From: Prescottella defluvii
GTDB lineage: Bacteria; Actinomycetota; Actinomycetes; Mycobacteriales; Mycobacteriaceae
Length of the DNA: 37,019 bases
Reading direction: 5' to 3'
Assembly (NCBI RefSeq): GCF_000738775.1
Contig: NZ_JPOC01000044.1
Location: 1-37,019 of the forward strand
Shown: in pieces, positions 8,939 through 12,058 of the stretch
Layout of the letters: each line of letters begins with the position of its first letter
Numbering within the stretch: position 1 is the first letter of the stretch
Notes under the pieces: generated by a model
The model's input: the letters and a program-made list of their open reading frames with translations, nothing else
Database searches by the model: none
Told to the model about the DNA's origin: nothing
Translations under genes and position numbers: made by a program

Positions 8939-8970
8939 TAGGTTTACCTATAACGCCGTGTTACAGTTAC
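8939..8970. promoter_or_regulatory. Candidate promoter/operator of the oxidoreductase cassette
   Basis: Between dciA and the next gene lie the small palindrome TAGGTTTACCTA (8939-8950), a -10-like TATAAC (8949-8954) and the direct repeat TTACAGTTAC (8961-8970), which contains a TANNNT element (TACAGT, 8962-8967). The grouping of AT-rich symmetric motifs in GC-rich DNA suggests a regulated promoter. I recognise no specific regulator. Confidence 0.4.
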
Positions 8971-9053
8971 GCCACTTCGTCGAGTGAGTGAACTGGGTCA
9001 CGATGCTGCCGTGGTGCGGCGGACGGGATCCGCCTCAGTACCTGGGAGTGACC

Positions 9054-9962
9054 ATGTCCGCAATGCACACCGCGCACCCGCCGACCGCCGAGCCGGACCA
9101 CATCCTGCTGCAGGCGCGCAACGTCGAGTTCGACTGGTCCGATCTGCCGATGCACTGGATCCCCGGCGACCCGTTCACCACCCACGTCTTCAACGTCCTG
9201 CACCTGCTGTTGCCGGCCGGCGAGGAGTGGTTCGTCGAGACCTACAAGGAGGCACTGCCTCTCATCGGCGACGAGCAATTGCGTGAGGACGTCGTCGGGT
9301 TCATCGGCCAGGAGGCCATGCACGCGGGCGCCCACACCGGAGTGCTCGAGCACCTGTGCGCGAACGGGCTCGATCCGACGCCGTACACCGATCAGATGCA
9401 CTGGACGTTCCGGAAGCTGCTCGGGCCCCGGCCGCTGACCGGTCGCCGCGCCGAGAACCACCTCATCGAGCGCCTCGCGATCATCGCGGCCGTCGAGCAC
9501 ATCACCGCGTTCCTGGGGGACTGGGTGCTCAACGCCGACGGACTCGACCGGGCCGGCGTCCACCCCACGATGCTGGACCTGCTGCGCTGGCACGGTGCCG
9601 AGGAGGTGGAGCACCGCTCGGTCGCCTACGACGTGATGCGCTACTTCGACAAGCGGGAGGCGCGCCGGATCCGCACCCAGCTACTCGTGACCCCGATGAT
9701 CGTGTGGCTGTGGGTGCGCGGTACCCGATTCCTGATGCGCAACGACCCGGAGCTCGCGAACTGGGCGCCGAGTCGTCGCCGCCCGAAGGTGTCCGACTTC
9801 GTCGCCGCCGGCCGGCGTGGAACCCTGCCCACCGCAATGGAACTCGGCAAACGGATGTCGACCTACTTCCGTCGTGACTACCACCCGGGCAAGGAGGGGT
9901 CCACGGCCCAGGCCGTGGCCTACCTGGCGTCCTCCCCGGCGGCGCGGGCGGCCACGCGGTGA
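9054..9962 (+). CDS. PF10118-family protein with a ferritin-like diiron residue pattern
   Basis: This 302-residue protein belongs to the family commonly annotated as predicted metal-dependent hydrolase. The start is ATG 9054 with GGGAG five bases upstream; an in-frame extension to 8988 lacks such a site. The visible metal-ligand pattern is E58 (G-E-E-W-F), E87-x2-H90 (Q-E-A-M-H) with H94, E148 (A-V-E-H-I-T), and E184-x2-H187 (E-E-V-E-H-R-S). The spacing of 29 residues in the first pair and 36 in the second matches the E/ExxH-E/ExxH layout of diiron ferritin-like oxygenases. The next gene overlaps by four bases and encodes a flavin/[2Fe-2S] reductase, the usual electron donor of such enzymes. 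I infer a diiron oxygenase rather than a hydrolase; the substrate is unknown. Confidence 0.75.
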   Translation: MSAMHTAHPPTAEPDHILLQARNVEFDWSDLPMHWIPGDPFTTHVFNVLHLLLPAGEEWFVETYKEALPLIGDEQLREDVVGFIGQEAMHAGAHTGVLEHLCANGLDPTPYTDQMHWTFRKLLGPRPLTGRRAENHLIERLAIIAAVEHITAFLGDWVLNADGLDRAGVHPTMLDLLRWHGAEEVEHRSVAYDVMRYFDKREARRIRTQLLVTPMIVWLWVRGTRFLMRNDPELANWAPSRRRPKVSDFVAAGRRGTLPTAMELGKRMSTYFRRDYHPGKEGSTAQAVAYLASSPAARAATR

Positions 9963-11080
9963 AACTGCCCCGGGTGCGCGATCTGCTCACCACACGTGAG
10001 GCATTCGATCGACCGGCCCCGCCGGCCGACCTGCAGGGACGGGACCGGCCCGACCGGGCCATGACGCTGGTCGAGGCCGTCGCGGACAAGTACCTGCGTG
10101 TGCTCACCGCGTACGACTACGACCCGGCCGTGGCCGGTCACAACCCGGACACCGCGTTGACGTTGATCGTCACCGACCGCGCGATCGTCGCCGAGGACGA
10201 GAACGTCGCGGCGCTGACCTTCGCGGCCGTCGGCGGCGGTGACCTGCCCGCGTGGCAGCCCGGTTGCCACCTCGACTTCCACCTGCCATCGGGGCTGCGG
10301 CGCCAGTACTCGCTGTGCGGCGACCCGGCCGATCGCCGGCACTATCGCATCGCCGTCCGCGCGATTCCCGACGGCGGGGGCGGGTCGATCGAGATGCACG
10401 GCCTCGCTCCGGGCACCACCGTCACGGTGCGTGGTCCGCGCAACGGCTTCCCGTTCGTCCCCGAGGGCCGCGCGCTGTTCGTCGCCGGTGGCATCGGCAT
10501 CACGCCGATCATCGCGATGGTCCGTTCCGCTCGGGAGAACGGAATGGATTGGCACTTCGTGTATTCCGGCCGTTCCCGCGACTCCATGCCGTTCCTCGAC
10601 GAGATCGCGTCGTGGGAGCCCGACCGGGTGTCCGTCCGCCCCGACGACGAGTTCGGCCTGCCCACCGCGGCCGCCCTGCTGGACCGGGCGCCGGCCGGGG
10701 GAGCGGTGTACTGCTGCGGCCCCACCCCGATGCTCGACGCCGTCCGCGACGGCTTCGCGGCCTCGGGTGCGAAGGCGCTGCACTTCGAACGGTTCGGGCC
10801 GCCACCGGTTCTCGGCGGCAGCCCGTTCCAGGTGCAGTTGGTGAGCACCGGGGAGGTGCTCGACGTCCCGGCCGACGAGTCGGCACTCGAGGTGATCCGG
10901 GCACGCCTGCCCGGTGTCGGCTACTCGTGCCGGCAGGGCTTCTGCGGCACGTGCCGGGTGCGGGTGCTGTCGGGCACGCCGGACCACCGCGAATCGCGTC
11001 TGACGCCGGAGGAACGGGAGGACCACATGCTCGTGTGCGTTTCCCGTGCCGACGGCGGCCGTCTCATCCTCGATCTCTGA
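9959..11080 (+). CDS. Flavin- and [2Fe-2S]-dependent reductase (phthalate dioxygenase reductase-like)
   Basis: This 373-residue electron-transfer protein has the domain order flavin - NAD(P)H - C-terminal plant-type ferredoxin, as in the PDR/VanB family. The flavin site has R-Q-Y-S-L-C-G, the nicotinamide site G-G-I-G-I-T-P-I, followed by Y-C-C-G-P-T-P-M. The ferredoxin end has C-x4-C-x2-C (C-R-Q-G-F-C-G-T-C) and a fourth Cys near the end (L-V-C-V-S). About 70 extra N-terminal residues precede the flavin domain, so it is longer than the usual 310-330. The start is GTG 9959, overlapping the upstream stop by four bases, which implies coupled translation and a shared function: passing electrons from NAD(P)H to the upstream putative diiron protein. 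Confidence 0.85.
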   Translation: MKLPRVRDLLTTREAFDRPAPPADLQGRDRPDRAMTLVEAVADKYLRVLTAYDYDPAVAGHNPDTALTLIVTDRAIVAEDENVAALTFAAVGGGDLPAWQPGCHLDFHLPSGLRRQYSLCGDPADRRHYRIAVRAIPDGGGGSIEMHGLAPGTTVTVRGPRNGFPFVPEGRALFVAGGIGITPIIAMVRSARENGMDWHFVYSGRSRDSMPFLDEIASWEPDRVSVRPDDEFGLPTAAALLDRAPAGGAVYCCGPTPMLDAVRDGFAASGAKALHFERFGPPPVLGGSPFQVQLVSTGEVLDVPADESALEVIRARLPGVGYSCRQGFCGTCRVRVLSGTPDHRESRLTPEEREDHMLVCVSRADGGRLILDL

Positions 11081-11116
11081 TCTGCAGCCCGAAAGGCTTG
11101 ACCGAGAGGAACTTTC

Positions 11117-12058
11117 ATGAGCACGTCGCACACCGACGGACCGGCATCGTCGCACCTCCGGTTCGTCACCAACGGTGACGTCCGGCTCGCGGTCTTCGAG
11201 CAGGGCAACCCGGACGGCGAGACGCTGGTGCTGGTGCACGGCTGGCCCGACACCCACGAGCTGTGGCAGCACGTCATCCCGCATCTGGCGGACCGGTTCC
11301 GGATCGTCAGCTACGACACCCGCGGCGCCGGGGCCAGTTCCGCGCCGACCGCGGTGTCGTCGTACGCGCTGCCGGAGTTGGCGCGGGACCTGTTCGCGGT
11401 GATCGACGCCGTCAGCCCCGACGCCCCGGTGCACGTGCTCGCGCACGACTGGGGCGCGGTGGAGACGTGGGAGGCCGTCTGCGAACCGGGGGCGCAGGAG
11501 CGGATCGCGTCGTACACGTCCATCTCGGGACCGAACCTCGACCACCTGGGGGCGTGGATGCGGCGGTCGCTGGCGCAGGGCCGGGTGGCCGGACCGCTCG
11601 CGCAGGCCGCGGCGTCGTCGTACACGGTGCTGTTCCAGATCCCCGGCGTCGGCACGCTGCCGTTCCGGCTGGGGCTGTGGCGGATCTGGCCCACGTTCCT
11701 CCGGTTCTTCGATCGGATGGACCCGTCGCTGGTCCGTCCGGCGCCGACGCTGCGTGTGGACATGATCACCGGGCTCAAGCGGTACCGCGCCAACATCCGG
11801 CCCCGGCTGCGCCGCCCGCGGGAGCGGCGCACCGATGTTCCCGTGCAGCTGATCCTCAACCGTCGGGACCTGGCGGTGCGCCCGGTCGGCTACGAGGACA
11901 CCGGACGGTGGGTCTCCGACCTGCGGCGACAGGAACTGCCCGCCGGGCACTGGTCGCCGATCTCGCACGGGCCCGACGTGGCGCGGCTGACGTCGGCGTT
12001 CGTCGACGATCTTCGTGCGGACACCGGCAGCGACAGCCTCGGCGCCGGTTCCGCCTAG
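11117..12058 (+). CDS. Alpha/beta hydrolase, epoxide-hydrolase-like
   Basis: This 313-residue protein has H-G-W-P-D (41-45, oxyanion side) and the nucleophile elbow H-D-W-G-A with Asp111. An aspartate nucleophile is typical of epoxide hydrolases and haloalkane dehalogenases, not esterases. The likely acid is Asp251 (N-R-R-D-L-A-V) and the base His278 (A-G-H-W-S). The sequence resembles the N-terminal hydrolase half of the mycobacterial EphD fusion but lacks the C-terminal short-chain dehydrogenase. The start is ATG 11117 with GAGAGGA upstream; it follows the reductase by 36 bases. An oxygenase, a reductase and an epoxide hydrolase together would suit an epoxidation-hydrolysis route; this is inference. 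Confidence 0.8.

Follow-up and report, generated by a model that had tools for sequence, protein, structure and literature searches.

The window analyzed here is the whole 37,019-nucleotide stretch of Prescottella defluvii DNA (contig NZ_JPOC01000044.1), in which three + strand genes, encoding a PF10118 protein, a reductase, and an alpha/beta hydrolase, lie between dciA and gyrB. The PF10118 protein is probably not the hydrolase that its family name implies but a ferritin-like oxygenase that is fed by the reductase and has a dimetal site, most likely diiron, of the AurF/CylC type. Residue conservation, predicted fold, linkage to the reductase, natural fusion with it, and linkage to the hydrolase in relatives make this a well-supported prediction. 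A sequence-only reading of the same DNA had proposed the core of this, a diiron protein that goes under a misleading name and is accompanied by a reductase of its own and an epoxide-hydrolase-type enzyme; conservation, predicted fold, linkage, and fusion support it, save that one of its metal ligands, E58, has to be replaced by E57. The three-gene set was confirmed in its open reading frames (ORFs) and coordinates (Table 1), and the flanking genes were identified by Pfam.

PF10118 protein: metal site and predicted fold

The window protein matches PF10118 (Metal_hydrol) at 264.6 bits against a Pfam cut-off of 33.2. All six residues previously proposed as diiron ligands (E58, E87, H90, E148, E184, and H187) are present at those positions, and all except E58 are invariant, so that one of the six fails the alignment test which the sequence-only reading set for itself. 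Among 81 near relatives (with two fusion proteins cut to their first 300 residues), position 58 is Glu in only five and Arg in 70, whereas the adjacent position 57 is Glu in all 81 and in all 29 members of a more diverse set; E58 was rejected as a metal ligand on these grounds. Q86, H180, and E183, absent from the earlier proposal, are also invariant. The positions conserved in all 29 diverse PF10118 members (19–61% identical to the window protein) are R22, E57, D73, F83, Q86, E87, H90, H94, E148, W179, H180, E183, E184, E186, H187, and P278. The site layout is E57, Q86-E87-x-x-H90, E148, H180-x-x-E183-E184-x-x-H187, in which E57, E87, H90, E148, H180, E184, and H187 would be the metal ligands, and Q86 and E183 second-sphere partners of the histidines. 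The ordinary six-ligand diiron pattern suggested before does not stand, since the site carries an extra His and second-sphere residues and is of the AurF/CylC type.

The seven-ligand set with the extra His, invariant in PF10118, is the feature shared with AurF, CmlI, and DnfA (PF11583). In DnfA, three His and four carboxylates are reported to be the same as in AurF and CmlI, and the third His precedes the Glu of the second ExxH by four residues (His209/Glu213/His216; PMC9478400, in excerpt), which is the spacing of H180/E184/H187. PF10118 differs from these proteins in its PF11583 score (12.6 bits for the window protein, below the cut-off of 29.6), in having Q86 rather than Asp, in its linkage to EphD-type hydrolases, and in the fused reductase of two relatives; hhalign pairs its ligand positions with the AurF-family seven-ligand set at low confidence. 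The CylC and NocO halogenases are reported to have nine essential residues that include QExxH and HxxDExxH (PMC12101540, in excerpt); compared through these published motifs, PF10118 has the same layout, with E183 for Asp and a shorter spacing between motifs.

An AlphaFold2 model of the PF10118 protein (pLDDT 93) is a helical bundle with the candidate ligands on four separate helices. All 50 Foldseek matches listed for the model are dimetal-carboxylate proteins. The best structural matches, R2lox and the class I ribonucleotide reductase R2, share the conserved E, ExxH, E, ExxH set that is predicted on four helices here, with E57 in place of E58; PF10118 differs from both in the extra invariant His (H180), its own PDR-type reductase, and the lack of a sequence match in the PDB. 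Searches of PDB sequences with the protein and with two alignment profiles (A1 and A2) returned no relative, the one weak match being BesC (7twa, E 0.55). Close kinship to acyl-ACP desaturases was rejected, the hhalign score of 13.9 being equalled by 70 of 100 column shuffles. The alignments comprised the window protein with 19 from the other 30 loci (A1, 20 proteins) or 57 from the 80 wider loci described below (A2, 58 proteins), and a set of 29 (A5); the comparison alignments held proteins from 13 of 20 AurF loci (A3) and 11 of 20 desaturase loci (A4).

PF10118 members occur in at least three phyla. A transmembrane helix near residues 205–225 is possible; in 9 of the 81 sequences some 19-residue stretch attains a mean hydropathy of 1.6. 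A second, distant PF10118 gene in the same genome (G000:C9:74917-75627, L002; 29% identity) encodes all of the proposed ligands and has no adjacent reductase gene.

Reductase partner

The second gene of the cassette encodes a reductase whose best match is phthalate dioxygenase reductase (2pia, E 6.7e-53), followed by the reductase ends of P450 fusions (6laa, 6kbh). All 80 reductases contain the R-x-Y-S flavin motif and the four cysteines of the [2Fe-2S] cluster, and the window protein is of the PDR/VanB type, GGxGxTP included; models for PaaE and MmoC match it below their cut-offs. It differs from the PDR/VanB reductases in its PF10118 partner and in a 74-residue N-terminal extension. The PDB-matching part starts only at residue 66–88 in the four best matches, and thus the extra N-terminal part noted in the sequence-only reading is real. 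A single 615-residue protein combines PF10118 and the reductase in each of Streptacidiphilus melanogenes and S. anmyonensis; these natural fusions lack the extension, as would fit a docking role for it. An RRA(L/M)RRR motif, possibly part of a membrane anchor, occurs at the N-terminus of 29 of the 80 reductases (e.g., L045, L050, and L053), where it follows a hydrophobic stretch in the examples, unlike the extension in the window.

Of 591 relatives that were confirmed, the best 80, mostly Streptomyces, make up the wider loci. In 79 of these the reductase gene lies downstream of the PF10118 gene on the same strand, and in the exception (L092) the contig ends 28 bases past the match; the co-occurrence that had been put forward as a check was thereby found. 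As previously noted, the two window genes overlap by four bases (start at 9959, end at 9962), with the GTG start of the reductase gene overlapping the PF10118 stop. Overlaps of four bases were counted in 26 of the 79 pairs and of one base in 16, from script-chosen starts. Flanks in one locus set were at most 1.5 kb, and farther partners were missed there. In a second set (flanks of 1.5–6 kb; L157 gave no match in the neighborhood count), the reductase gene is downstream in 41 of 50 loci with PF10118 proteins of at least 38% identity, or in 29 of 38 once the 12 same-genus loci (window included) are set aside; Burkholderia, Acinetobacter, and Tsukamurella plasmid loci are among the nine that lack it. 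None of the 16 second-set loci with more distant PF10118 proteins has the reductase downstream, and the pair was not found in any non-actinobacterial locus viewed in that set. Such a reductase was likewise absent from the control loci for AurF (0/20), acyl-ACP desaturase (0/20), and Ferritin_2 (0/10), which sets PF10118 apart from AurF; one AurF control locus gave a hydrolase-like match.

Epoxide-hydrolase-type partner

The third gene encodes an Asp-nucleophile protein of the epoxide-hydrolase type, in agreement with the sequence-only reading, and the diagnostic residues are present. The protein resembles epoxide hydrolases of known structure, and its best NCBIfam match is PRK05855, which we take to be a model covering EphD (349 bits over the N-terminal half of the model, below the cut-off of 455). 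HGxP, D111, Y169, Y223, and H278 are kept in all 25 full-length homologs encoded beside PF10118 (window included), and D251 in 24; we take these to be the Asp nucleophile, the two lid Tyr, and the acid–His pair of alpha/beta epoxide hydrolases. Mycobacterial EphD, an alpha/beta hydrolase–SDR fusion (PMC7998700, in excerpt), shares these residues, whereas the 313-residue window protein has no SDR domain and is not a full EphD; in 13 of 24 relatives the ORF is long enough for the fusion. According to excerpts of the same source, M. tuberculosis EphD acts on 9,10-epoxystearate, opening the epoxide, and changes the epoxymycolates of M. smegmatis; for most such epoxide hydrolases, native-substrate data are said to be lacking (PMC7998700).

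Of 37 related genomes, 22 encode both PF10118 and an EphD-type protein, one the EphD-type protein only, 14 neither, and none PF10118 alone. The two genes are less than 3 kb apart in 20 of the 22 (a hand count from two lists), with linkage in nine genera (g1, g2, g4, g7, g9, g10, g25, g28, and g37); 12 of these genomes belong to one genus, and thus the linkages are not independent events. The tie is looser in 26 further genomes: 14 encode PF10118, 12 of these also have an EphD-type gene (linked in six), and four have the hydrolase without PF10118. Other arrangements include a PF10118–reductase pair with a limonene-epoxide-hydrolase-type protein after it (R. fascians plasmid), an EphD-type fusion preceding the pair (Dietzia), and a fusion-length EphD-type ORF before PF10118 with the reductase absent (Burkholderia).

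Proposed reaction and alternative functions

Electrons would pass from NAD(P)H to flavin, to the [2Fe-2S] cluster, and on to the dimetal site, where O2 would be activated; family membership is the ground for each of these steps. We tentatively propose that the substrate is a lipophilic alkene, either an isoprenoid or an unsaturated acyl chain, which the oxygenase would convert to an epoxide. The EphD-type hydrolase would then open the epoxide to a diol, and an SDR, which many relatives carry as a fusion to the hydrolase, may oxidize the diol further. Epoxidation appears to be the likeliest single reaction because the linked epoxide hydrolases are of two unrelated folds, and a lipophilic substrate is suggested by the fatty-acid genes at some loci together with the fused SDR. 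PaaABCDE (phenylacetyl-CoA epoxidase) and sMMO are multicomponent diiron epoxidases or monooxygenases that combine an oxygenase with a flavin/[2Fe-2S] reductase; the cassette differs in encoding neither an additional oxygenase subunit nor a coupling protein. More tentative again is the broader proposal that PF10118 is an overlooked AurF/CylC-type diiron class, whose actinobacterial main branch, with its dedicated or fused PDR-type reductase, would supply epoxides to EphD-type hydrolases in a full alkene-to-diol (with the SDR, ketol) pathway.

Certain findings weigh against the proposed oxygenase and its coupling to the hydrolase. Shuffling the protein 20000 times gave the loose E..ExxH..E..ExxH spacing 1434 times, so the pattern alone is weak evidence; the case is carried by residue conservation, fold, and gene context. 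The hydrolase is present in only 19 of the 80 wider loci, and its absence from the other 61 favors the main rival, in which the same diiron oxygenase would hydroxylate or desaturate lipids (R2lox or acyl-ACP-desaturase chemistry) and the hydrolase would act on some other epoxide (e.g., in detoxification) or on an ester. In favor of lipid hydroxylation or desaturation, R2lox ranks with the best Foldseek matches and some PF10118 copies adjoin fatty-acid genes, but we regard this alternative as doubtful given the tight PF10118–hydrolase linkage in 20 of 22 relatives, the retention of both lid Tyr and the Asp nucleophile in the hydrolase, and the limonene-epoxide-hydrolase-type protein that follows the pair at another locus.

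N-oxidation and halogenation are less likely than hydroxylation or desaturation. Oxidation of an amine or hydroxylamine by an AurF/DnfA-like N-oxygenase would fit the seven candidate ligands (three His and four Glu) shared with AurF, CmlI, and DnfA, and DnfA likewise has a neighboring FNR/[2Fe-2S] protein, DnfB (PMC9478400, in excerpt); it is made unlikely by the low PF11583 score, by Q86 at a position where AurF has Asp (PMC12101540, in excerpt) and the AurF-family consensus is DECRH, and by the linked genes noticed, which are those of epoxide hydrolases. That the ferritin-like fold, the dedicated reductase, and weak Rubrerythrin and Ferritin_2 profile matches denote a metal-storage protein, or a peroxidase or oxidase of the rubrerythrin kind that uses NAD(P)H, seems quite unlikely beside the larger R2/CmlI/MMO-type fold, the extra His, and the epoxide hydrolase linkage. 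For a CylC-like radical halogenase, QExxH and HxxEExxH resemble the QExxH and HxxDExxH of CylC across nine corresponding conserved residues (PMC12101540, in excerpt), a likeness to the published motifs, with no CylC sequence compared; QExxH is matched exactly, but Glu replaces Asp in the second motif, NocO residues Q128, E252, and D282 imply a longer insert between the motifs (PMC12101540, in excerpt), and the EphD-type neighbors point to epoxides, so halogenation is very unlikely. A genuine metal-dependent hydrolase has the Pfam name in its favor and is highly implausible in view of the dedicated reductase, the natural fusion, the diiron-protein fold, and the ligand set.

If the PF10118 protein is the oxygenase favored here, its hydrolase name has kept a large family of oxidation enzymes from notice: members annotated as hydrolases in at least three phyla would become oxygenases, many with a known electron donor, and correcting the annotation would offer new biocatalysts, self-sufficient fusions included. 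EphD-type hydrolases would gain a candidate oxygen-inserting partner, and the AurF/CylC site type, reported for N-oxidation and halogenation in excerpts of the sources cited above, would extend to a gene set beside replication genes. In the open-licence literature searched, one paper names PF10118, in a correlation network of proteases (PMC8960859), and no description of it as an oxygenase was found; earlier work elsewhere is possible.

Genomic location, selection, and neighboring genes

The sequence-only reading saw the cassette as interrupting a conserved gene order. The cassette does sit between dciA and gyrB, but the interruption is lineage-specific. Of 14 same-genus genomes, 12 have recF and dciA before the PF10118 gene and the reductase and hydrolase genes after it (flanks stop short of gyrB except in the window); in the other two (G003 and G011) PF10118 is absent and gyrB follows dciA. 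Of the ten genomes viewed in all, the cassette-free order also occurs in four from other genera (G016, G019, G022, and G024), the cassette follows dciA in three (G018, G033, and G035), and gyrB was not seen in the flank of G020. Six of the 80 wider loci place PF10118 between dciA and gyrB, with the hydrolase (L032–L034) or without it (L037, L039, and L091); L035 and L036 have the trio with neither dciA nor gyrB in the locus. In nine same-genus pairs (9 of the 11 other same-genus loci), the ratio of nonsynonymous to synonymous substitution rates (dN/dS) is 0.09–0.16 for the PF10118 gene, 0.12–0.21 for the reductase gene, and 0.12–0.27 for dciA; the first two are under purifying selection and diverge in step with their neighbor dciA. 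We infer that the cassette is an old, lineage-specific insertion and not a recent mobile one.

A conserved GGAG precedes the ATG at 9054, which is therefore a better start for the PF10118 gene than a possible longer GTG start at 8988. A scan upstream of this gene gave no match to a sigma-70-like promoter. The hydrolase gene begins 36 bases past the reductase gene.

Table 1. Coordinates of the cassette, its proposed functional residues, and its flanks in the window.
Feature	Position	Strand	Support
dciA, upstream flank	8371..8934	+	Pfam DciA 92.0 bits; homolog upstream of cassette in same-genus loci
Conserved non-coding stretch TTTACCTAT ... TGTTACAgTTAC, 5' of PF10118 gene; candidate promoter/operator	8943..8970	+	11 aligned same-genus sequences
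PF10118 gene, predicted ferritin-like diiron oxygenase, 302 aa	9054..9962	+	ATG start, conserved GGAG before start
E57 codon, proposed helix-1 metal ligand	9222..9224	+	Glu in 81/81 and 29/29
QExxH motif, Q86–H90	9309..9323	+	Q86, E87, H90 invariant
E148 codon, proposed helix-3 ligand	9495..9497	+	Invariant
HxxEExxH motif, H180–H187	9591..9614	+	H180, E183, E184, H187 invariant; hhalign pairing to AurF-family HxxEExxH
PDR/VanB-type flavin/[2Fe-2S] reductase, 373 aa	9959..11080	+	4-base overlap with PF10118 gene
Reductase N-terminal extension, ~74 aa	9959..10180	+	Absent from natural fusion proteins
[2Fe-2S] cysteines C324, C329, C332, C360 of reductase	10928..11038	+	80/80
EphD-type alpha/beta epoxide hydrolase, 313 aa, without EphD SDR domain	11117..12058	+	H41-G-x-P44, D111, Y169, Y223, D251, H278
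gyrB, downstream flank	12211..14247	+	Pfam DNA_gyraseB 210 bits; GTG 12211 start read from sequence

In 49 of 72 analyzed loci (of the 80, eight were dropped from neighbor-gene clustering where gene calls missed the central gene), one of the six genes downstream encodes a regulator, and the one member tested (L053:10074-10790) is of the TetR family by Pfam; because of this position at most analyzed loci, a small molecule may induce the predicted PF10118 oxygenase. The Pseudomonas neighbors presumably bear the locus names PA0829/PA0830. Upstream in the window, dnaN and recF are adjacent (7058-7148); L032, L033, L034, L037, L039, and L091 carry an extra gene there, which we take to encode 6-phosphogluconate dehydrogenase. 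At 23883-26436 the window encodes a TetR-type protein and then a secretory lipase (PF03583), an ordinary arrangement.

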